Of a stretch of 64,000 bases of DNA, positions 20,135-40,708 are shown piece after piece. Within the stretch, counting starts at the first letter, position 1. Each line of letters opens with the position of its first letter. Source of the DNA: Verrucomicrobiales bacterium (GTDB lineage: Bacteria; Verrucomicrobiota; Verrucomicrobiia; Verrucomicrobiales; DEV007); the NCBI GenBank assembly GCA_016795505.1, contig JAEUHH010000008.1, positions 1 through 64,000 on the forward strand, in the 5' to 3' direction. The notes below the pieces were generated by a model that saw nothing but the letters and a program-made list of their open reading frames with translations, had not been told where the DNA came from and did not search any database. The position numbers were made by a program, and so were the translations under genes.

Positions 20135-23100
20135 TCAGCCCACCGCCGCCAGTTCCGCCGCGTACAGTTCGGCCGTCTTGGCCTTCAGGTCATCCAGAGA
20201 GATCTCGCCCTTGTCGTGCTTTGCGAGCAGGGCCTTTTGGGCGAGGTAGTCCTTGTTCACCTGGCCGGCCTTGCTCTGGAGCATGCGCCAGGCCTTGCGA
20301 CGCTCGACGCAGAACAACACGGTCTGCCGGGATACAGTGTAGTAGCGGAATTTGCCATTCACCTCGGTCTTGATGTAAACGCCAAAGTCCGGGACATAGC
20401 TCCGGTGCGCGGGATCGAAGACGCGGCGCTTGATCACGTCGTCCTGGGTGATGAGGGCGAGCATGTCGTCCAACGCGATGAATTCGCCGGTCTCCTCTGG
20501 CTTGATCGCCTTCAGGTGCTTGCGGAAGCGCGCCTCGGTGGTGGCCCAGTGGGCGACGGTGTAGCTGAACTTCGTCTTGTCGCTGTAGGCGGCCTGATAC
20601 CAGTCGCGATCCAGGCTGGGGTTGCCCTTCAGGTCAAAGCTCTCCTGGGAGGTCTCGCCGCCCTGGGGATTGAAGACGAACTCGGGCATGCCGCGGGAGT
20701 CGCGGGCCAGCTTGGCCTGGTGGGCGGACATGTCGTCGGCCACACCGTGCTCGGGCTGGCAGGTGGTATAGCATTGGAAGAAGGCCGTGCCGCGGTATTC
20801 GAGGCCCTCCAGCACGCTCTGGTAGAGCTTCGCCGCGTTGGCCATGGAGACCTGGGCAATGTAGGGGCTGCCATGGCCGCTGGTGAGGATCTCGGCGACG
20901 TTCTTTTTCTCATGCAGCTTGCCCTGGCTGGCCTTGCCGAACTGGTTCATGTCGTAGCCGCCGAGCATGTTCGAGCTGTCGGAGTTCTGCCCGCCGGTGT
21001 TGGAGTAGACCTGGGTGTCGAGCATGACGCCCTTCACGTTGGGGCGGTTCTGCAGGATGACCTTGGACAGATTCTGGAAGCCGATGTCGCCCAGCGCGCC
21101 GTCGCCACCGACGATCCACACCTTGGGCAGTTCCTTGATCTCCTGCTCCGTCATCTCAATGTCGGTCAGGTGGGTGAGATCCCAGTAGCCGCCTTCGTCG
21201 ATGACACCGGAGCCGCTGTCCGCGGCGCTCTGGTCGCCGAGCAGGGCCTTGGCGAGGCGCTCGGGGGCGACGGAGCGGCGGGCGTGCTGGAGCAGCAGGC
21301 TCTCGCCCAGCAGCCACGAGATGGTCGGGCCGTCCTGGAAGAGGCTGTTCATCCATGGGTAGGGATGCGGATTCGACGGCGGGGTGGAGCCGTAAACGGT
21401 GTTGCAGCCGGTCGAGGCGCCCATGAACATCACGCTCATGCCGTTGGCGAGACGGCCGTCGGTGCTCTGGAGCTGCTTGTGGTTGAAGGCATCGACCCGC
21501 AGCACGCTGGCGATGGCGGAGACGATGTCCTCGTCGGAGATGGGGCCGTTCGCGGCGATGCGCCGGCGCGTGTCGGCATCGTTCTCACCGCCGAGGCCCA
21601 TCAGGATGTGCGCCACGGCCTGCCGGAAGAGGTCATACTCCGCGGCGTCGCGGGCCTTCAGCTCGGCGAGACGGGCAGCGCCGTCGGCTTCGATGCGGTC
21701 GGCAAAAGCCAGCAGGCGCTCGGCTTTGCGGTGATAGACGGGCCGCATGTAGGCCTCGGTGACCGACGCGATGGCGCGCAGGATCGATTTCTCACCACAG
21801 CCGGCGCAGGCGCCGTCTCCGGAGACGAGGGCCTCGTAGTTGCGCCGCACCATGAGGTGGTTGCGCAGCGCCGCGGGGCGGGAATCCTCCGGCTTCTGGT
21901 CGTCGTAGAGGCCGAGATACTTCTGCGAGGTGTCGGGCAGGAGGCGGGAGAAAATCTGCGCGCTGGTGAGGCGGTAGTTCAGGTCCTCGGTATCGGGCAC
22001 CATGACGAGCGCGTTGTGATCGCCGCACTGTTCGACGCACTCGCCGCAGCCCTTGCACAGGTCACTAACGAAGATGGAGAACACGCCGCCCTGGCCGGGG
22101 CTCTTCTTCTCGATCGACCGGTAGATGGCCGGCACCTTGGCGTAGGCCACGGGCACGAGGTCGAGGATGGTGATGAACTCGTCCTTGGTCTGCTGGCTCA
22201 GGCCGCCGTTGAGCGCGGCCAACTCGGAGTCGATGATTTCCTTGAACGGCACCGATTCCTTGGCATCGATGGCGGCATTCATCCGGTCGCGGGCGCGGGT
22301 CTCCACCCCGGGCAGGGCGGCCAGCAGCAGGTCGCGCTGGGCGGGATCGTTCACGTAGTTCCGCGCCGCGGTGGCGAGGATGGTGGACAGGTCCTGCGCG
22401 GTGTTCGGCAGGGCGGTGTCGGGGCAGGCGCTGATGCACTCCATGCACTGGGTGCAATTCTCCGGGATGTAGAGCGGCGTCTCGCGGCGGGCGACGTACT
22501 TCGACGCCGTGGCGCCGGTGCCGGCGGCCATTACGCCCACCGAGGCCAGCGCGCCGGCCGGCTGGTGGTAGCCGAGGCCGTTGCGGAACTCGCCGTCGAA
22601 TTTCGCCAGCGTTTGGACCGGGTAACGTGCCGGCTGACCGGGAGCGATGCCCGGCGTGCCCAGGCCGGCGTAGCCGCAGCCCGCAGTCGGAAGGATGGTC
22701 TGCTCGCCCTGCGGCAGCACGGGGGTGAGGCGCATGCTGGAGCGGTCCTCGTCATCGATGTCGCCGTAGGGGATCTCGGTGACGCGGTTGTAGCCCTCCT
22801 GCATGACCTTCATGTTCGACTCCACCACGGCGGCGCCGAATCGGCCGAACTTCTTCTCGTACTGGGCGCGGACGACCTCGTCGAAGCGCGACTCGTCGAT
22901 GTCGAACACCTTGAAGAACGGCGACACGCGGAAAAACGCGCCGAGGAAGCTGTTTCCCTGCATGCGGAGCTGCAAGTCCGGCCGGTCGGTCGCGGCCTTG
23001 GCGATCTCGAAGCCGGGCAGGGTGAAGACGCGGATGCCATTTTCCCGGACAAAGTCGCGGTACTTCTTCGGGATGCGCTTCCACGCCATCTCGGGCGATT

Positions 23101-24859
23101 CGCTCGATTCCCAGACCAGCGCGCCGCCCTTCTTCAGGCCCGCGAGCGGATTGGTGTGGGTGAAGGCCTTCGGGTCGCAGCAGAGCACGATGTCCACGTG
23201 GTTCAGCTCGCAGTTCACCCGCACCGGAGCCGGGGCGGCGACGAGGTAGTAGTTCGTCGGGGCGCCCTTCTTCTCCGAGCCGTACTTCGGGTTGGCGTTG
23301 ACGAACAGGTTGGACTCGCCGCGCTCCTGCTCCAGCAGGTGGGCGAAATCGCCGATGATCTCGCCGAGGTTCTTGCCCGTGGTGATCATGCCCCAGCCGC
23401 CGATGGAGTGGAAGCGGGCCGCGATGGCTCCGTTGGGCAGCAGGGAGGGGGTGTCCTTGGAAATGACCGCGTAGGGATGGTCCACGCCGAGGACGAAGAA
23501 ATTCTCCCCGTCGGCCGCGGTGCGGCCATCCTTGCGCGCCGTGGCGCCGGTGGCGAACTCATAGGCGCCCAGGCTGTGCTCGGGCCGGAAATCGCGCGAG
23601 CCCACCCCGTAGGTGCCGTTGAAAATCCGGGGCATCTCGTCGGGAGCCAGCGCCGGGACCTTGCCCTTGCCGCCGTTCTGGTGCGCTTCGAGCCCTTTGG
23701 TCAGCGCGGTGCGGATGTCGCGGCCGATGGGATTGTCGCCGGCCATGCCCTCGTCGGTCCGCTCGATGATGATGACGTTCTTCTTGCCGCGCAGCGCCTC
23801 GATGATGGCCGCCTCGGGGAAGGGCCGGATCACATTGATGTGGATCGAGCCCACCTTCGCGTTGCGCTGCTCGCGGAGGTAGTCGCAGGCCGCCTCGATG
23901 TTTTCCGCCGCGCAGCCGAGGGAGACGAACACCGTGTCCGCATCCTCCGTCTGATAGCAGTCGATCAGCCCGTAGCGGCGGCCGGTCAGGTCGCCGAATT
24001 CCGCAAAGGCCGCCTGGAGGAAGCCCAGGATCGGCTCGTTCCAGTTGTTCCGGCGAGCCGCGATGCCGTTCATGTGGTGCTCCTGGTTCTGCACCGGGCC
24101 GAGCAGGATGGGATTCTTCAAGTCCATCATCGCCGGCACCCGGCGGCGGCGCGGGCCGAACAGCTCCCGTTGCGCCTCCGTGGGGCAGTCGATGACATCG
24201 TCCGGAGCCCCCAGGTATTCCCGGAGAAAGTCCGCCTCGGGCATCAGCCAGGCGCGCTCCGAGTGCGTCGTCAGCATCCCGTCCTGCACGTTCATGCCCG
24301 GATTCAGCGCGATCTCGCACACCTTGCGCAGGATGATGGCCTGGTCCGCCGCCTGTTGGGCGTCCTTGGCGAACAAGATCGTCCAGCCCGTGTCCAGCGC
24401 CGCGTAGATGTCGTCGTGGCCGCAGTGGACGTTCAGCGCGTGCTTCGTCAGCGCGCGGGCGCCGACCTCCAGCACCATGGTCGAGCCCTTGCCCGGCGCG
24501 TGATAGTACTGCTCCATGGCGTAGGCGAGGCCCTGGCCCGAGGTGAAATTCACCACCCGCCGGCCCGTCACCGCCAGCGCCGTGGCCCCGCCCTGGGCGG
24601 CGTGTTCGCCCTCCGTCTCGATGGCGATCTTCTGGTTGCCCCACACATCCAGCTCGCCCGACGCGAAGCTCTGCTGGTACAGTTCCCCGCCCTCCGTGGA
24701 CGGCGTGATGGGGTAGAACACCCCGCCCTCCGTGATCCGGGTCTCGACGTATTTCGCGACCAGCGTGTTGCCGTTGCAGGTGATGCGGATGCCCGGGTAT
24801 TTCGGCCCCTGCGACGAGGCCGGGCTTTCCTTGGGCGGATCGATGGTGGTCTGGGACAT
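20135..24859 (-). CDS. nifJ: Pyruvate:ferredoxin (flavodoxin) oxidoreductase, unusually long
   Basis: 1574 aa, against about 1170-1200 aa for typical NifJ/PFOR. It oxidises pyruvate to acetyl-CoA and CO2 and passes electrons to ferredoxin. Domain order is that of the single-chain enzyme. Residues about 25-290 are the pyrimidine-binding domain (PITPSTEGGE, NFTSGQGL). The CoA-binding and gamma domains follow (GGWGMITTGKNLGEI near 500). The ferredoxin domain has two 4Fe-4S motifs, CTQCMECISACP near 800 and CKGCGECVEQC near 933. The TPP domain has CAGCGEKS near 1016, GGDGALGDIG near 1250 and YSNTGGQNS near 1290. All cluster and TPP motifs are intact. The extra length is spread in the linkers, including one between the first TPP motif and GDG, and a C-terminal extension. 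Confidence 0.9.
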   Translation of the reverse strand: MSQTTIDPPKESPASSQGPKYPGIRITCNGNTLVAKYVETRITEGGVFYPITPSTEGGELYQQSFASGELDVWGNQKIAIETEGEHAAQGGATALAVTGRRVVNFTSGQGLAYAMEQYYHAPGKGSTMVLEVGARALTKHALNVHCGHDDIYAALDTGWTILFAKDAQQAADQAIILRKVCEIALNPGMNVQDGMLTTHSERAWLMPEADFLREYLGAPDDVIDCPTEAQRELFGPRRRRVPAMMDLKNPILLGPVQNQEHHMNGIAARRNNWNEPILGFLQAAFAEFGDLTGRRYGLIDCYQTEDADTVFVSLGCAAENIEAACDYLREQRNAKVGSIHINVIRPFPEAAIIEALRGKKNVIIIERTDEGMAGDNPIGRDIRTALTKGLEAHQNGGKGKVPALAPDEMPRIFNGTYGVGSRDFRPEHSLGAYEFATGATARKDGRTAADGENFFVLGVDHPYAVISKDTPSLLPNGAIAARFHSIGGWGMITTGKNLGEIIGDFAHLLEQERGESNLFVNANPKYGSEKKGAPTNYYLVAAPAPVRVNCELNHVDIVLCCDPKAFTHTNPLAGLKKGGALVWESSESPEMAWKRIPKKYRDFVRENGIRVFTLPGFEIAKAATDRPDLQLRMQGNSFLGAFFRVSPFFKVFDIDESRFDEVVRAQYEKKFGRFGAAVVESNMKVMQEGYNRVTEIPYGDIDDEDRSSMRLTPVLPQGEQTILPTAGCGYAGLGTPGIAPGQPARYPVQTLAKFDGEFRNGLGYHQPAGALASVGVMAAGTGATASKYVARRETPLYIPENCTQCMECISACPDTALPNTAQDLSTILATAARNYVNDPAQRDLLLAALPGVETRARDRMNAAIDAKESVPFKEIIDSELAALNGGLSQQTKDEFITILDLVPVAYAKVPAIYRSIEKKSPGQGGVFSIFVSDLCKGCGECVEQCGDHNALVMVPDTEDLNYRLTSAQIFSRLLPDTSQKYLGLYDDQKPEDSRPAALRNHLMVRRNYEALVSGDGACAGCGEKSILRAIASVTEAYMRPVYHRKAERLLAFADRIEADGAARLAELKARDAAEYDLFRQAVAHILMGLGGENDADTRRRIAANGPISDEDIVSAIASVLRVDAFNHKQLQSTDGRLANGMSVMFMGASTGCNTVYGSTPPSNPHPYPWMNSLFQDGPTISWLLGESLLLQHARRSVAPERLAKALLGDQSAADSGSGVIDEGGYWDLTHLTDIEMTEQEIKELPKVWIVGGDGALGDIGFQNLSKVILQNRPNVKGVMLDTQVYSNTGGQNSDSSNMLGGYDMNQFGKASQGKLHEKKNVAEILTSGHGSPYIAQVSMANAAKLYQSVLEGLEYRGTAFFQCYTTCQPEHGVADDMSAHQAKLARDSRGMPEFVFNPQGGETSQESFDLKGNPSLDRDWYQAAYSDKTKFSYTVAHWATTEARFRKHLKAIKPEETGEFIALDDMLALITQDDVIKRRVFDPAHRSYVPDFGVYIKTEVNGKFRYYTVSRQTVLFCVERRKAWRMLQSKAGQVNKDYLAQKALLAKHDKGEISLDDLKAKTAELYAAELAAVG

Positions 24860-28912: not shown

Positions 28913-31900
28913 TCAGTGACCGGTGGTGGCGGCGGGGGCCTCGTCGGCTTTGCCGATCCAGACATCTTTGATCCAGCGCCAGGTGCGGCTGGTGAGGCTC
29001 TGGGCGTCGGAGAGGGCGATGTAGGTCAGCGGCACGAGGAACAGGGTGATGACGGTGGCAAACAGGGAGCCGTAGCCCATCGCGACGGAGACGGGGGTGA
29101 GGAACTGGGCGTGGGTGCTCTGGGCGCCGGTGCTGAAGAAGAAGGGGGCGAGGTCGGCGAGCCAGGTGCCGCTGAAGATGAGGGGGACGAGGCCGAAGAA
29201 GGTGGTGATCTGGGTGAGGAAGATGGCGCGGAAGCGGTGGACGCCGCCTTTCTGCACGGCCTCGCGCAGGGGCATGCCGCTGGCGCGGAGGTCGTTGATC
29301 TCGTCGACGAGGACGAGGGTGTCATTGACCACCACGCCGCAGACGCCGAGGATGCCGAACAGGGACATGATGCTGAGAGGCAGGTCATGGGCGAGGTGGC
29401 CGAGCACGGCGCCGACGATGCCGAAGGGCACGACCAGGAGCACCACGAAGGGCTGGGAGTAGCTTTTGAAGGGCACAGCCATGAGGGCATACATGCCGGC
29501 GAGCACGATGAGCAGGGACAGGAGCATCTGGGAGCCGCTCTCGGCCTGCCGGCGGGCCTCGCCCTCGAAGGTCCAGCGGATGTGGCCGTGGCTGGCGAGG
29601 AGTTGGTCGATGTGGGTTTTGATCTGGGCGCGGAGGGCCTCCAGGTCAGTGGTTTTCTTGTCGGCATCGGCGGTGATGTTCATGGCGCGGCGGCGGTCGA
29701 CGCGCTTGATGCTGGTGAAGCTCTTCACGACAGAAGCCTCGGCGACGGTGCCGAAGGGAATCTCCAGCCCGTCGGCGGTGCGCACCCGCATGGTCTCCAG
29801 GGTGGCGAGATTGCGGCGCTCGTCGCGGGGCAGGCGCAGCATGACTTTCACTTCGTTGCGGCCCCGCTGGATGCGCTGGACTTCGTCGCCGTAGAAGGCC
29901 TGGCGGACCTGGCTGGCGAGGTCGTTGACGGTGACGCCGAACTGGCGGGCCTCGGGCTTGAGGCGGAGCTGGATCTCATTGCGCCCGGAGTCGAGGGTGT
30001 CATTGATGTCGAACAGGGCGGGGTAGGTGGAGAGATGTTCCTTGATCTTGGCGGAGATCTCGAGCAGCTCCCGCGGGTCGGTGCCGGTGAGCTGGATGTC
30101 GATGGGATCGCCGCTGCGCATGATCTCGGCCCGGAAGGTGATCTCCTCGGCACCGACGATGGGGCCGATGCGGCGGCGCCACTCGGAGGCCATATCGACG
30201 GTGTTCACGTCGAGGCTGCGCTCCTCGGGGCCGTAGGTCTCCATGACGACGCCCCCGATGTGGGAGCCGGGGCTGTTCGAGGTGCCGCGGCCGGTCGAGA
30301 CGGTGGTGCCGGTGGAGGCGACGATGTGTTTGATGACGCTCTGGCCGTCGGGGCCGACGTACTCGTCGCGCATCTGCTCGGCGATCTCGTAGATGCGCTG
30401 GATCTGGGCGTCGGTGGTCTCAAAGGGCGTGCCGTCGAGCATGGTGAGGCGGCAGTCGATCCGCTCGCTGGGCACGCGGGGGAAATAGGTGGTCTGGATG
30501 CGGCCGCCGGCATAGAGGCCGATGAGCACGGTGAGCCCGCCGAACATCAGGGCCAGCACGGTGTAGGTGTGGGCCACGCAGTAGCGGATGGAGGGCCGGT
30601 AGACGCGGTCGATGAACCATTGCAGGCCGGCGCCGGAGAGGCGGTGCACCGGTGCGAGCAGATCTCCGGCCCGGCCGAGGAAAGGGGTGGCGAGGTGGCT
30701 GGGGAGGATGAGCTTGGTCTCCAGCAGGGCGATGAGCATGACCGTGATGAACACGATGGCGATGGGCTTGAACATGCTGCCCCAGTCCGAGGAGTCGAAG
30801 GCCATCGGGATGAAGGCCATCACGGTGGTGAGGACGCCGAAGGTGATCGGCACGGCCATGCGCCGGGTGCCCTGAATCGCCGCCTCGAGAGGTGGCAGGC
30901 CGCGCTGTCGGTAGCTGTCGCAGCTCTCGCTGATGACGATGGCGTCATCGACCACGATGCCGAGGACGAGGATGAAACCCATCAGGGAGGACAGATTGAT
31001 GGTAATGCCGAGGTAGGGCATGAGGGCGAAGGCCCCGAGGAAGCTCATCACCATGCCGACGCCGACCCAGATGACGGCCTCGAGCCGGAGGAACAGGCCG
31101 ACGCAGAGGAAGACGAGGATGAGGCTGCTCTGGGCATTCTGGCGGAGCAGGTCGATGCGCCCTTTGACGATCTTGGAGCGATCGTTCCAGAAATCAAGTC
31201 TCACCCCATCGGGCAGGGTGTTGTTGGCGGAGTCGATGTATTCCTTGACCCGCTCGCCGATGGTGATGGCGTTCTGTTTGCCCTCGCGCATCACGGTGAT
31301 CATGACGCAGGGGCGGCCGTTCAGTTTGACGATGAGGGGATTTTCCGTAAAGCCGTCGATGATCTTTGCGATCTCGCCGAGGGTGAGCTTGCTGCCGTCA
31401 GGGCGGGTGAGCACCGGGACGCGGGCGTAGTCGTCGCCCGTGTAGGCCCGGCCGCGGGTGCGGATGGAGACATCGCCGGAGTCGGTCTGCACGACGCCGG
31501 CCGGGAGGTCGATCGCGCTCTCGCGGATGGCACGGCTGATGGAGGCGAGGCTGAGGTTGTACTTTTTCAGCGTGGCCTCGGGGATCTCGATGGCGATCTC
31601 CTCTTTCCGCACGCCGGCGATCTCGGCGTGGGAGATGCCGGGGAGGGCGGCGAGTTCGTCGCGGGTCTGTTCGGCGAGGCGTTTCAGGTCGCGCTCGGCC
31701 ATCTCGGCGCTCAGGATGACGGTGATGACCGAGTGGAAGGAGTCGTCGAGCTGGATGATGGGCTTTTCGGCGAGGGTCGGGAAGTTCGGGATCGAATCGA
31801 GGCGGATTTTCACGTCCTCCATGACGGTGCGCGGGTCCTCGTCTTCGTTGACCTCGATGAGGACGGTGCCGCCGCTGCTGCTGGCGGTGGAATTGATGTG

Positions 31901-32134
31901 CTTGATCCCGCCAACGGGCTGGAGGGCCTCCTCGATCTTGAGGACGATGTTTTCCTCGGTCTCGTCCGGTGAGGAGGCCGGGTAGGGGACGTTGACCGAG
32001 ATATACCGCGAGGGCATGTCCTGGAAAACCTCCAGCGGGATCTTGTCCATCCAGAGCGTCCAGATGCCGGTGGCCATGACGGCCAGCATCAGCAGGTTCG
32101 CGGCGACGCCGTTTCTGGCAAACCACTCGATCAC
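28913..32134 (-). CDS. RND-family efflux transporter (AcrB/HAE1-like)
   Basis: 1073 aa inner-membrane proton antiporter, of normal length for the family. The first membrane helix lies at residues 10-28 (VAANLLMLAVMATGIWTL). A large periplasmic porter domain follows, then helices 2-6 with GIVVDDAIVISE, where the two Asp residues carry protons. A second porter domain (from about 560) and the last six helices with GVVVNDTLVLVDEIN repeat the pattern. The gene starts 8 bp behind the adaptor gene, so the two are one operon; no outer-membrane channel gene is adjacent. Substrate unknown. Confidence 0.93.
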   Translation of the reverse strand: MIEWFARNGVAANLLMLAVMATGIWTLWMDKIPLEVFQDMPSRYISVNVPYPASSPDETEENIVLKIEEALQPVGGIKHINSTASSSGGTVLIEVNEDEDPRTVMEDVKIRLDSIPNFPTLAEKPIIQLDDSFHSVITVILSAEMAERDLKRLAEQTRDELAALPGISHAEIAGVRKEEIAIEIPEATLKKYNLSLASISRAIRESAIDLPAGVVQTDSGDVSIRTRGRAYTGDDYARVPVLTRPDGSKLTLGEIAKIIDGFTENPLIVKLNGRPCVMITVMREGKQNAITIGERVKEYIDSANNTLPDGVRLDFWNDRSKIVKGRIDLLRQNAQSSLILVFLCVGLFLRLEAVIWVGVGMVMSFLGAFALMPYLGITINLSSLMGFILVLGIVVDDAIVISESCDSYRQRGLPPLEAAIQGTRRMAVPITFGVLTTVMAFIPMAFDSSDWGSMFKPIAIVFITVMLIALLETKLILPSHLATPFLGRAGDLLAPVHRLSGAGLQWFIDRVYRPSIRYCVAHTYTVLALMFGGLTVLIGLYAGGRIQTTYFPRVPSERIDCRLTMLDGTPFETTDAQIQRIYEIAEQMRDEYVGPDGQSVIKHIVASTGTTVSTGRGTSNSPGSHIGGVVMETYGPEERSLDVNTVDMASEWRRRIGPIVGAEEITFRAEIMRSGDPIDIQLTGTDPRELLEISAKIKEHLSTYPALFDINDTLDSGRNEIQLRLKPEARQFGVTVNDLASQVRQAFYGDEVQRIQRGRNEVKVMLRLPRDERRNLATLETMRVRTADGLEIPFGTVAEASVVKSFTSIKRVDRRRAMNITADADKKTTDLEALRAQIKTHIDQLLASHGHIRWTFEGEARRQAESGSQMLLSLLIVLAGMYALMAVPFKSYSQPFVVLLVVPFGIVGAVLGHLAHDLPLSIMSLFGILGVCGVVVNDTLVLVDEINDLRASGMPLREAVQKGGVHRFRAIFLTQITTFFGLVPLIFSGTWLADLAPFFFSTGAQSTHAQFLTPVSVAMGYGSLFATVITLFLVPLTYIALSDAQSLTSRTWRWIKDVWIGKADEAPAATTGH

Positions 32135-32141
32135 CGGAGCG

Positions 32142-33404
32142 TCAGGAGGAGGTGCGGTCGCTCTTTTCGGCCGGTGGCCGGCTGGCTCCGTCCTGCCGGG
32201 GGGAGGCGATCTCGGGCGACTCGGTGGCGCCGTCTATGGTGGGCAATACCGAGGCGCCTTCCGCGGCGAAGGGGATCGGGGTCAGGCAGAGGATTTCTCC
32301 AGGGGCGGGCGATTTGCCGGGGCGCGTGCCGATGACGATCTGCTGGGCGTCGCTGTAGAGGGGATCAACGGTGACGCGGCGCAGCTTGTTTTCCGCCGTG
32401 ATGAGGATGATTTCATTTCCCGCCCGGACGGCGCGCCGGGGAATGACGAAGACATCGGTGAGCACGGAGCCCTGGATCTCGGCTTCGACGAATTGGCCGA
32501 TCTTCAGCGGCGGGCCGACGTTGCGTTTGCGGCCATAGGGGTCGTTGATCTGGGCAACGGCGGTGATTTGCCGGGTCGCCTCGTCGATGGCGCTCTCGAC
32601 CCGGACGATGGCACCCTCCCACGTGGCGGGCTTGCCTCCGATCCGGGAATGCAGCTTCACGGGTGCCGAGGTGCCGGATGCGTCGCCATCGCGGAAGTGC
32701 TCCGGCAGATCGAGGAATCGCATGTCGCGCTCCGGCAGGGGCAGGCGGATCTCCACGTAATCCACGGCAAAAACGGTGCCCAGGGGAGTGCCTTGCGAGA
32801 CGAACTGGCCGAGGTCGGCCGACTGTTCGAGGACCTGGCCATCGTAAGGGGCGCGGATCACGGTCCGTTCGAGGTCCCGCTCGGCTTTGGCGATGCGGGC
32901 CTTGGCGGATGCGACGTCGGCTTCGGCTTTGGCGACTTGAGGGAGGCGCAGGGCGAGTGGGCTTGGCTCGCCGGATTTGCCGAGCGCCCGCCAGTTCTCG
33001 CGGGCCTGGTCGGCTTTGGCTTTTTCCTCCACCAGTATTACCTCTGCCTGAGCCAGCTCAGCCTTGGCCACGACGATCGCGGTCTCGTAGTCGACGGGGT
33101 CGAGCTTCAGCAGGACATCGCCGGCGGAAAAAAAGCCGCCCGGCCGGAAGGACGGGCTCACCTCGATGATGCGGGCGGATACCTCCGGGAGCAGGGCGCT
33201 GCGGGTGCGGGGCTGGACGGTGCCCTGGGAGCGGACGTGGACGGGGAAGCTGGTCGGCTGAAAGCGGGTGGCTTCGACCCGCATCAGCACCGGAGGCGCT
33301 TCGATCGTCTCGGGCTGGGGGCGGTTTTCGATGAACCACCACGCCCAGTAGCCACAGGCTCCGAGGATCACGAGAGGGAGGACGGCTCGGAAAAAACGAT
33401 TCAT
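32142..33404 (-). CDS. RND efflux membrane-fusion (adaptor) protein
   Basis: About 420 aa periplasmic adaptor of the HlyD/AcrA family that should link the RND pump encoded behind it to an outer-membrane channel. A membrane anchor covers residues 7-25 (VLPLVILGACGYWAWW). A lipoyl half-motif (VHVRSQGTVQPRTRSALLPE) is followed by a long helical hairpin (about 110-180, AKAELAQAEVILVEEKAKAD), then the second half TVIRAPYDGQVLEQSADLGQ and beta-barrel domains. The ATG at 33404 is preferred; the open frame extends 28 codons further without a signal. Confidence 0.92.
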   Translation of the reverse strand: MNRFFRAVLPLVILGACGYWAWWFIENRPQPETIEAPPVLMRVEATRFQPTSFPVHVRSQGTVQPRTRSALLPEVSARIIEVSPSFRPGGFFSAGDVLLKLDPVDYETAIVVAKAELAQAEVILVEEKAKADQARENWRALGKSGEPSPLALRLPQVAKAEADVASAKARIAKAERDLERTVIRAPYDGQVLEQSADLGQFVSQGTPLGTVFAVDYVEIRLPLPERDMRFLDLPEHFRDGDASGTSAPVKLHSRIGGKPATWEGAIVRVESAIDEATRQITAVAQINDPYGRKRNVGPPLKIGQFVEAEIQGSVLTDVFVIPRRAVRAGNEIILITAENKLRRVTVDPLYSDAQQIVIGTRPGKSPAPGEILCLTPIPFAAEGASVLPTIDGATESPEIASPRQDGASRPPAEKSDRTSS

Positions 33405-33596
33405 CGGCTGGGGGAAATCGCGGAACGGGGCGAAAAGACTGAGACCGAAACCGTCATGTGTGATTTCTCCGAACGCAAGCGCCTGCATCGCCCGAGATGC
33501 GCCTGCGACCCGCGGGACATGAGGCGGCGCGGTGGAGGGAAGGGAACGCTGTCGAGCCGTCCGTCGGATGCGGGCCGGCTGCGGAGTGCGGAAAGA

Positions 33597-33671
33597 TGGT
33601 GCACGAGGACGGGATCGAACCGCCGACCAACTGGGTGTAAACCAGCCGCTCTACCGCTGAGCTACCCGTGC
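33597..33671 (-). tRNA. tRNA-Val (anticodon TAC)
   Basis: 75 nt including an encoded CCA end. Acceptor arms GCACGGG and CTCGTGC pair with one G-T pair. The D-arm reads GCTCAGCGGTAGAGC, the anticodon loop has TTTACAC with anticodon TAC, and the T-arm GGTTCGATCC. It reads GTA and, by wobble, other valine codons. Confidence 0.96.
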
Positions 33672-33784: not shown

Positions 33785-33808
33785 ACTTTGTGAAAAATTT
33801 CACAAAGT
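33785..33808. promoter_or_regulatory. Rex-like operator in front of the ATP synthase operon
   Basis: A perfect inverted repeat with 11-bp arms around two bases. Its inner 18 bp (33788-33805), TTGTGAAAAATTTCACAA, match the known binding pattern of the redox repressor Rex, TTGTGAA-(N)-TTCACAA. Rex senses the NADH/NAD+ ratio; in Streptomyces it is reported to bind in front of ATP synthase and respiratory operons. The site is 111 bp upstream of the atpB start and next to a possible promoter. No rex gene is in the window. Confidence 0.65.
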
Positions 33809-33810
33809 TC

Positions 33811-33837
33811 TTGCGATGACTGGGGGGACGGTATAGA
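33811..33837 (+). promoter_or_regulatory. Candidate promoter of the ATP synthase operon
   Basis: A -10-like TATAGA lies at 33832-33837. TTGCGA at 33811-33816 could be the -35, but the spacing is only 15 bp; TTCTTG at 33808 gives 18 bp. The Rex-like palindrome lies directly upstream, overlapping or touching the -35, where a bound repressor would block polymerase. Weak match, placed by context. Confidence 0.35.
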
Positions 33838-33918
33838 AACAGCGTGCCCGGAGCCAGGGCTGACCCCGGCCGGCTTGGGTGTCCCTCTCTTTCAACCTGA
33901 CAATCGCGAGTCCGATTC

Positions 33919-34788
33919 ATGGTTCCGACCGTTTCAACCCTGTTCACCGTCCCGCCGATGCTGGCTGCCGTTCCGCTGAATGCGGAGAGCCTGTTCGGCT
34001 TCGTGACCAACTCGATGTTCGTCGCAGTGATTGTGACGACAGTGATCCTGCTCTTTACCCGCATGGCCACCCGGCGGATGGAGACCATTCCCGGCAAGAA
34101 GCAGAATCTGGTCGAGTTCGTCGTCGAATTCGTCCTGACGGAGTTGGAGGGCATTCTCGGTCGCAAAATCGCGCTGAAGGTGTTTCCCCTGCTTGCGACC
34201 ATTTTTGTCTTTATCCTGGTGTCGAACTGGTTCGGCTTGCTGCCGGGTGTTGGCTCCATCGGATATGGTGAGCAGACCGGTCCGCTGACGCTCGATGCGT
34301 CAAAGCACTACACGCCCTATCTGCGGCCGGCGACGGCTGACTTGAACATGAACCTCGGCATGGCGGCCGTGTTCATGATTGTCTGGCTCTATATTTCGAT
34401 TCAGGAGGTCGGGCTCGGCGGATTCCTCAAGCACATCTTCGGTGCCAAGGGTGGCATGACTGGCTTGTTGGGTCTGTTGATGGCGGTCATTTTCTTCATT
34501 GTGGGCATCATTGAGGTGATCTCGATCCTGTTCCGTCCGGTGTCCCTGTCTCTCCGGTTGTTCGGTAATATTTTCGCGGGCGAGACGCTCCTGCACACCA
34601 TGGCGGAGTTGGGTGAGAAGATGGGATGGCCGGATGCGCTGGCCTTCGTGGGCCGGGTGGTGCTGCCGATTCCGTTCTATTTCATGGAACTGCTGGTGGG
34701 TCTGGTGCAGGCGATCGTGTTCACGCTGCTGTGCGCCGTCTATGTCCAGCTTTCCACGGCTCACGATGAGGAGGAACATCATCACTGA
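33919..34788 (+). CDS. atpB: ATP synthase Fo subunit a
   Basis: 289 aa inner-membrane stator subunit that forms the two proton half-channels next to the c-ring. Five to six hydrophobic helices are visible. The essential arginine is Arg213 in PVSLSLRLFGNIFAGE, and the last helix region contains LLVGLVQAIVFTLLCAVY with the usual Gln. The C-terminus ends HDEEEHHH, a histidine-rich tail. First gene of the atpBEFHAGDC operon; no atpI or atpZ gene precedes it. The Rex-like site and candidate promoter lie just upstream. Confidence 0.97.
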   Translation: MVPTVSTLFTVPPMLAAVPLNAESLFGFVTNSMFVAVIVTTVILLFTRMATRRMETIPGKKQNLVEFVVEFVLTELEGILGRKIALKVFPLLATIFVFILVSNWFGLLPGVGSIGYGEQTGPLTLDASKHYTPYLRPATADLNMNLGMAAVFMIVWLYISIQEVGLGGFLKHIFGAKGGMTGLLGLLMAVIFFIVGIIEVISILFRPVSLSLRLFGNIFAGETLLHTMAELGEKMGWPDALAFVGRVVLPIPFYFMELLVGLVQAIVFTLLCAVYVQLSTAHDEEEHHH

Positions 34789-35279: not shown

Positions 35280-35777
35280 ATGGATGTCCTCACCAAATTT
35301 GGCGTCAACTGGCCGGCCTTCATCGCCCAGGTCCTGATTGTGCTGGTCGTTTACACGGTCCTCAAGAAATATGCCTTCGGACCGGTGCTGGCCATGCTCG
35401 AGCAGCGCCGTAGCCGGATCGAGGAAGGCGAAAAAGAGCTGGTCAAAATCCGCGAGCAACTGGAGCAGGCGGATTACCGTGTGAAGGCCATGCTCGACGA
35501 GGCGAATGCCAAAGCTGAGCGCCTGATCGGCGAGGCTCGCGAGAGTGCCTCCGCTCTTCGTGAGCAAAAGACTCAGGAAGCCATTTCCGAGGCGGAGAAA
35601 ATCGTCGCCAAGGCCAAGGAGGCTTCCAAGCTGGAGCACGAGCGTCTGCTGGGCGAGCTGAAGCGCGACTTCGGGCGTCTGGTGGTCGAGACCACTGGCA
35701 AGGTGACCGGCAAGGTGCTCGACGAGAAAGATCAGAGCCGCATCAATCAGGAAGCCGTTGGCCAGTTGGCCATCTGA
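35280..35777 (+). CDS. atpF: ATP synthase Fo subunit b
   Basis: 165 aa peripheral stalk subunit. One N-terminal membrane helix (WPAFIAQVLIVLVVYTVLKK, about 10-30) is followed by a long charged helix to the C-terminus, as expected for the dimeric b stalk (VLAMLEQRRSRIEEGEKEL onwards). A single atpF gene is present, with no b' copy. It lies 106 bp behind atpE and 62 bp ahead of atpH. Confidence 0.95.
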   Translation: MDVLTKFGVNWPAFIAQVLIVLVVYTVLKKYAFGPVLAMLEQRRSRIEEGEKELVKIREQLEQADYRVKAMLDEANAKAERLIGEARESASALREQKTQEAISEAEKIVAKAKEASKLEHERLLGELKRDFGRLVVETTGKVTGKVLDEKDQSRINQEAVGQLAI

Positions 35778-35839
35778 TCGTCCGAAATCGCCTCGCGACC
35801 CATCGATTTCCCCATTTCCGATCTCCCGACCGTCCCGCC

Positions 35840-36235
35840 ATGAAGATCAGCAAAGAATCCCGTCGCGTGGCCCGGCAACTGATGAAGTTGACGGTGAAGG
35901 ACGGTCAGGTCGATCCGATCATCGTCCGCCGGGTGGTGGATGGTTTGAAGCGCGACAAATCCCGCGGCTACATCGGCAAGATTGCCGCCTACGCCCGTCT
36001 GGTGCGTCTGGAGCTGGATCGCCGACATGCCGTGGTGGAAAGCGCCGAGGCGCTGGATGCCGCCACTCAGGCGAGCGTGACGACCGCTCTTCAGAAAAAA
36101 TATGGAGCCGGCGTGACTTTGGAATTTTCAGTGAATCCTGCCCTGCTCGGCGGCATGCGCGTGCGTGTCGGCAGCGATGTGTGGGATGGCAGTGTGAAGG
36201 GGCGGTTGGACCGTCTCCGCGACCGCATCGGATGA
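35840..36235 (+). CDS. atpH: ATP synthase F1 subunit delta, short form
   Basis: 131 aa, shorter than the usual 175-185 aa of bacterial delta (OSCP). The N-terminal helical bundle that binds the top of F1 is reduced to about 60 residues, while the C-terminal part that contacts subunit b is intact: [20 protein letters not shown] with the conserved GG and D, then [11 protein letters not shown]. Position between atpF and atpA supports the call. The ATG at 35840 is the first in frame after the atpF stop. Short delta subunits are plausible in this lineage, but I cannot compare relatives here. Confidence 0.88.
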
Positions 36236-36290
36236 TGCGATATTCGAAATAACCTTTTTTAAAGACCAACGATTCAACGGACGAAGAGCC

Positions 36291-37826
<1,536 letters not shown>

Positions 37827-37872
37827 TCGTCCACTCCGCGACCCGGAAACCCAGAACCGACGCCCCCCACCG

Positions 37873-40249
<2,377 letters not shown>

Positions 40250-40300
40250 GGAATTCGTCGACAGGATTCAATTTTCAGAACCTACGCCCCTCTCGCCATC

Positions 40301-40708
40301 ATGCCGATGCGTCTTGAAATCGTCACTCCGGAAAAGCGCACCTTTTCCGATCTCGTCGATCTGGTCGTGATCCCCGGGGTGGAAGGTGAGATGGGCGTGC
40401 TGGAGAACCACGCCGCCCTCGTCACGACGCTGGCCCCCGGAGAACTCCGCTACGCCAAAGGCGGCGAGGAGCACGAACTGGCGGTGGGCGAAGGCATCGT
40501 CGAGATCACCGGGACCAGTGTCTCGGTGCTCACCGACCTCGCCATCGCCGAAGCTGACATCGACGAAGCCGCCGTGGCGGCCGCTCTGGAACGGGCGGAG
40601 AAGGCGCTGCAGGAAAAACTCGGCGACGAGGAGATCGCCACGGTGCAGGCCGCCATCCAAAAATCGATGGCCCAGCTCCATCTGAAGCGGAAGCGCCGTC
40701 GCGTCTGA
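40301..40708 (+). CDS. atpC: ATP synthase F1 subunit epsilon
   Basis: 135 aa. An N-terminal beta-sandwich (MRLEIVTPEKRTFSDLVDLV, then PGVEGEMGVLENHAAL, matching the conserved G-E-x-G-x-L-x-x-H-A) is followed by the two-helix C-terminal domain (IDEAAVAAALERAEKAL) that can extend to inhibit ATP hydrolysis. Last gene of the operon. Behind it lie a GC-rich palindrome (CCGGCGGCCGCCGG at 40724-40737) and repeat cluster 6; no classic U-tract terminator is visible. Confidence 0.95.
   Translation: MPMRLEIVTPEKRTFSDLVDLVVIPGVEGEMGVLENHAALVTTLAPGELRYAKGGEEHELAVGEGIVEITGTSVSVLTDLAIAEADIDEAAVAAALERAEKALQEKLGDEEIATVQAAIQKSMAQLHLKRKRRRV

Follow-up and report, generated by a model that had tools for sequence, protein, structure and literature searches.

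The regulator Rex recognizes the consensus operator TTGTGAAN4TTCACAA (PMC5355995, PMC2883068, PMC5317091). In the actinobacterium Streptomyces avermitilis, Rex binds this sequence and represses atpI, nuoA1, and cydA1 until NADH relieves the repression, and its operators serve atpIBEFHAGDC, nuoA1-N1, cydA1B1CD, rex-hemAC1DB, and ndh2 (PMC5355995). The Rex sites of Staphylococcus aureus lie within the promoter or a few base pairs upstream or downstream of it (PMC2883068). As relayed in PMC5317091 and PMC13077300, Ravcheev et al. (2012) described broad Rex regulons whose generalised consensus, TTGTGAANNNNTTCACAA, holds across several phyla.

The locus considered here lies in a contig of a Verrucomicrobiales bacterium, of which the window is the whole 64,000-nucleotide stretch that was analysed. 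On its + strand, atpB, encoding subunit a of the F-type ATP synthase (33919-34788), heads the atp operon, the rest of which spans 35280-40708 and includes, by Pfam, atpF (35280-35777), atpA (36291-37826), atpD (38840-40249), and atpC (40301-40708). Upstream of atpB, the putative Rex operator TTGTGAAAAATTTCACAA (33788-33805, + strand) matches TTGTGAAN4TTCACAA exactly, in agreement with a preliminary description of this DNA that had assigned it to the Rex pattern. That description also called the sequence a perfect palindrome; the inverted repeat, ACTTTGTGAAA-AA-TTTCACAAAGT (33785-33808), is real and has longer arms than stated, namely 11+2+11 with 11-bp arms, but the two bases of its centre, AA, are unpaired. 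The operator ends 113 bp, rather than the 111 bp given earlier, before the atpB ATG (33919). No match to the operator, even at three mismatches, appeared in 100 dinucleotide shuffles of the window. A putative −35 element, TTGCGA (33811-33816, + strand), follows 5 nt past the operator and occupies the same place in relatives (5 or 7 nt), and a putative −10 element, either TATAGA (spacer 15) or TAGAAA (spacer 17), is recognizable by conservation at 33832-33839 (+ strand). The candidate promoter proposed beside the palindrome is thus backed by conservation, though a strict sigma-70 consensus scan missed it. Across the operator from atpB lies a divergent tRNA-Val(tac) gene (33597-33671, − strand); we considered a tie between the two and dropped it, as a tRNA falls within the stretch in just one (L031) of 16 relatives' loci scanned.

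Judged by its AtpB relatives, the window belongs to Verrucomicrobia, one relative in a Verrucomicrobiia metagenome-assembled genome having 88% identity. Among the atpB loci retrieved by protein search, the exact operator precedes atpB in all 12 of Verrucomicrobiales type (L017-L022, L026, L027, L030, L031, L033, and L035), where its start lies 87-221 bp upstream of the atpB match and its core is fully kept while the flanks diverge. It is missing from the Chthoniobacter/Spartobacteria-type atpB loci (L023-L025, L028, L029, L032, and L034). L023, L024, L025, and L032 instead share another conserved stretch, GGTTTTTGTG..GTTTC, about 119 bp before atpB with no Rex site, which is possibly another promoter or the site of another regulator.

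The genome encodes a single Rex (G000:C82, locus L001, 1036-1656, − strand) of 206 amino acids. Members of the family combine an N-terminal winged helix (PF06971) with a C-terminal NAD(H)-binding domain in about 210 residues, and the protein matches PF06971 at 67.5 bits and NF003992 at 246.6 bits (cut-off 226), with other NCBIfam Rex models also above cut-off. Its best PDB matches are solved Rex proteins (5zz5 at E 3e-47). Alignment to PDB Rex proteins shows that residues named as touching DNA or NAD(H) in the Thermotoga maritima Rex-NAD+-DNA structure (PMC8836258) are kept, namely Arg12, Ser33, Lys43, Gln46, Arg48, Lys49, Arg60, Gly61, Tyr64, Asn92, Tyr100, Asp115, Lys120, and Asp191. The preliminary description had let its reading depend on a Rex homologue in the genome, here identified by NF003992 and 5zz5, and on retention of the palindrome upstream of atpB in close relatives; both are found. 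A cytochrome c assembly gene (PF01578) is found upstream of rex. No exact operator precedes rex and the best match there has three mismatches, so autoregulation is unsupported in this genome. An operator upstream of rex is common in such systems but not defining. Among relatives, G082 and G124 carry exact sites upstream of rex, and G129 close to it.

We scanned the genome (6.5 Mb in 120 contigs) for the operator, with the reversed pattern as control. TTGTGAAN4TTCACAA has four exact, no one-mismatch, and 11 two-mismatch occurrences, and the reversed control pattern has none in the whole genome. All four exact sites precede respiratory operons. Besides atpB, these are nuoD, with nuoH and nuoI in the same stretch (L003, L200); nuoB-nuoC (L004); and a multihaem cytochrome gene followed by a gene for a large protein with 4Fe-4S domains (L002, L198), which we name actA-actB of alternative complex III (ACIII) on the basis of gene order and domains. 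The Pfam matches of ActA and ActB are cytochrome c7/c3 and Fer4, and the nearest NCBIfam model is QrcA, below cut-off. All 11 two-mismatch sites lie within at least one open reading frame; for this reason they are probably background, and we dropped them as additional targets. Recurrence of the palindrome at other promoters, suggested earlier as a check, holds for nuo in this genome and for cyd and rex in relatives, but not for the genome's own rex, which has no exact site.

Across the class, 41 of 141 genomes encode a Rex above cut-off and 34 carry an exact site. The two occur together in 29 genomes, neither occurs in 95, and one alone in 17 (Fisher p = 1e-15, a value that overstates independence given that the genomes are related). 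Six rex-bearing genomes of the window's order hold 4-9 sites each, and both site and rex are missing in 18/18 sampled genomes of genus g2 of that order. The 12 genomes with rex and no exact site all contain one-mismatch sites (35 in total, versus 3 in the reversed control). Five genomes have a site and no rex. Three of them carry just one site each, in surroundings unrelated to respiration (L077, L080, and L094), and these sites are chance occurrences. In the other two, G104 and G135, an assembly gap is likely because their congeners carry rex and the targets are respiratory.

Altogether, 126 distinct sites were gathered, about 110 of them before respiratory-chain genes in the classes atp, nuo, ndh2, ACIII, cyd, cox/ctaA, and quinone synthesis. 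By first downstream gene, mostly named by eye or from resemblance to a single annotated member of the group, there are 31 sites at atpB, 14 at nuoB, 13 at actA, 10 at nuoD, 9 at a gene for a small uncharacterised exported protein, 8 at nuoG, 6 at a polyprenyl synthase gene, 5 each at nuoF and nuoH, 3 each at an ACIII-type cytochrome c gene and a type II NADH dehydrogenase gene, 2 each at mqnE and rex, and one each at cydA, coxB, nuoA, ctaA, and nuoI. A few sites are shared between two divergent genes, and a few precede rpsL or genes for a class V aminotransferase, a ferredoxin-type protein, or unknown products. The exported small protein is found behind a Rex site at 1531-2292 of L090 and also in L084, L086, L087, L092, L158, L166, L170, and L178. 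It has a weak carboxypeptidase-regulatory-like match, COX15/CtaA comes next in L086 and L092, the two loci checked, and the protein is possibly an undescribed cytochrome-oxidase-associated protein. Before rpsL, a Rex-type palindrome, TTGTGAAGTTTTTCACAA, occurs at about 1470-1550 of L131 and L134, from two genomes of one genus (G112 and G132), and hints that ribosomal genes may be tied to redox state. Another Rex-type palindrome lies between mqnE, which belongs to the futalosine pathway of menaquinone synthesis, and a divergent gene for an ECF-type sigma factor, at about 1501-1522 of L148 and L076, which belong to two different families.

The sequences thus supply the sites and their conservation, a rex gene that co-occurs with them and encodes the contact residues, the target genes, and the promoter spacing described below, and on these grounds the palindrome before atpB is almost certainly a Rex operator. 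We favor the hypothesis, with a probability of roughly 85%, that NAD+-bound Rex represses atp, nuo, and act and that NADH releases it. By analogy with studied Rex proteins, from which binding, NADH release, and the repressing direction are taken, a Rex dimer would sit on the operator at a low NADH/NAD+ ratio. Bound Rex would hinder RNA polymerase at the atp promoter, because the expected Rex footprint of 27-29 nt extends as far as the border of the −35 element. Once NADH accumulates and binds Rex, the protein would leave the operator and the atp operon would be transcribed, together with both complex I operons (nuoB-nuoC and nuoD...nuoH-nuoI) and the actA-actB operon of alternative complex III. 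The respiratory machinery would in this way be induced by NADH, the fuel that it consumes, and the size of the whole respiratory chain would appear to be set by the NADH level across these bacteria. The earlier proposal that ATP synthase is tied to the NADH/NAD+ ratio gains support from the rex gene and from the palindrome kept in relatives, with binding and the response to NADH presumed from other Rex proteins.

Like the S. avermitilis system (PMC5355995), that of the Verrucomicrobia uses the common motif and has atp, nuo, cyd, and ndh2 as core targets, but it adds alternative complex III, cox/ctaA, and quinone-synthesis genes. The two also differ in position: the S. avermitilis atpI and nuoA1 sites overlap the −35 element, with the atpI footprint extending from −50 to −22, whereas the verrucomicrobial operator ends 5-7 nt upstream. 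The operator is identical to that of S. aureus, TTGTGAAW4TTCACAA (PMC2883068), yet S. aureus Rex acts on genes for fermentation and nitrate respiration instead of those for complex I, ACIII, and ATP synthase.

Position relative to the promoter was analysed at 76 atp/nuo/cta-type sites after dereplication. In 68/76, a conserved −35 element lies 5-7 nt downstream of the operator (about 4 expected), its TTG starting at position 6 (25 sites), 7 (7 sites), or 8 (36 sites) after the operator, with about 1.4 expected per position. This TTG mostly has a C before and a C after it, so that the fourth base of the −35 element is off-consensus (TTGC, 81% C), and a TA-rich −10 element follows about 16-18 nt beyond the TTG. 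The operator centre therefore lies near −50 relative to the predicted start. Such strict spacing, centred near −50, is not required by simple occlusion and would also suit an activator. Furthermore, it recurs at the unrelated genes atpB, nuoB, D, F, G, H, and I, and ctaA, and therefore is not simply one inherited promoter. Outside the class, the composite pattern was found in two genomes only, one site each, in a phylum-wide sample. At the polyprenyl-synthase promoters and the act promoters of one family, the predicted −35 element lies about 42-46 nt before the operator centre, and the operator therefore covers the predicted start region.

One proposal built on this geometry places the whole oxidative-phosphorylation chain of Verrucomicrobiae under Rex as master regulator, acting through a spacing-locked module (operator, 5 or 7 nt, cTTGC, 16-18 nt, TAnnnT). 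Rex would have two modes: contact with RNA polymerase, possibly activating, at atp/nuo/cta and, at polyprenyl-synthase and some ACIII promoters, an ordinary block of the start site. We regard this proposal as unlikely. The related explanation that Rex is an activator or contact-dependent switch at atp/nuo/cta, and represses the polyprenyl-synthase and some act promoters from over the start, draws on the locked TTG positions, the off-consensus fourth base, the recurrence at unrelated genes, and the operators that lie downstream of their promoters. However, our literature search turned up no activator action of Rex, the S. aureus sites in or beside the promoter have been interpreted as repressing (PMC2883068), and repressing the entire chain when NADH is scarce is physiologically sensible; we hold this explanation to be rather improbable. 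For the spacing-locked promoters, we infer the direction of regulation, and their geometry poses the question of how Rex acts from just upstream of the −35 element.

The palindrome also resembles the Escherichia coli CRP consensus, TGTGA-N6-TCACA, in that its 16-mer TGTGAAAAATTTCACA satisfies TGTGAN6TCACA, and the genome has CRP-like HTH proteins. A CRP/FNR-family site is nevertheless very improbable, and we rejected it since the presence of the site does not track CRP/FNR-family genes: 116 of the 141 genomes encode CRP-type HTH domains, most of them lacking the site, and no match to these domains was reported in G066, G112, G111, G113, and G116, which have 8, 9, 4, 1, and 2 sites, respectively (the candidates of G066 and G112 having been partly scored). 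The site instead follows the occurrence of rex. Its outer bases fit the TT/AA and AA/TT positions of the Rex consensus, and some genomes have it in front of rex itself. That the hairpin is a transcription terminator, or is otherwise unrelated to atp regulation, is scarcely credible and was rejected on chance expectation and conservation pattern, as a terminator-like match on the − strand compares with about 0.7 expected by chance in the region, no − strand gene was seen that would be transcribed into it, all four genomic copies precede respiratory operons, and the core stays unchanged between diverging flanks.

Verrucomicrobia are common in soils, waters, and guts, and the regulation of their energy metabolism is little charted. 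The 2012 survey of Ravcheev and colleagues reportedly left them outside its coverage, and related work is said to describe atp targets of Rex in Desulfovibrio-type deltaproteobacteria. Our literature search, outside which that survey lay, found no description of Rex in Verrucomicrobia. This is a known regulator in an apparently undescribed phylum-level setting; Rex control of the atp operon is already known in an actinobacterium (PMC5355995), and what is new is the lineage and the breadth. We predict that complex I, type II NADH dehydrogenase, alternative complex III, oxidases, quinone synthesis, and ATP synthase are under the joint control of one NADH sensor, and that such control is missing from the small-genome genus g2 of the same order, which has no rex. 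The roughly 110 respiratory operators form a ready set for testing.

Two further features of the window deserve mention. A pyruvate:ferredoxin oxidoreductase had been noted, and the corresponding 1574-residue pyruvate:ferredoxin/flavodoxin oxidoreductase-like protein is confirmed at 20135-24859 (− strand) by POR_N, POR, and PFOR_II. Such oxidoreductases are usually roughly 1200 residues long, and the extra part has no Pfam match at the threshold used. Adjoining the atp operon, at 28913-33488 (− strand), are genes for an RND efflux pump of the AcrB family and a HlyD-type membrane fusion protein.
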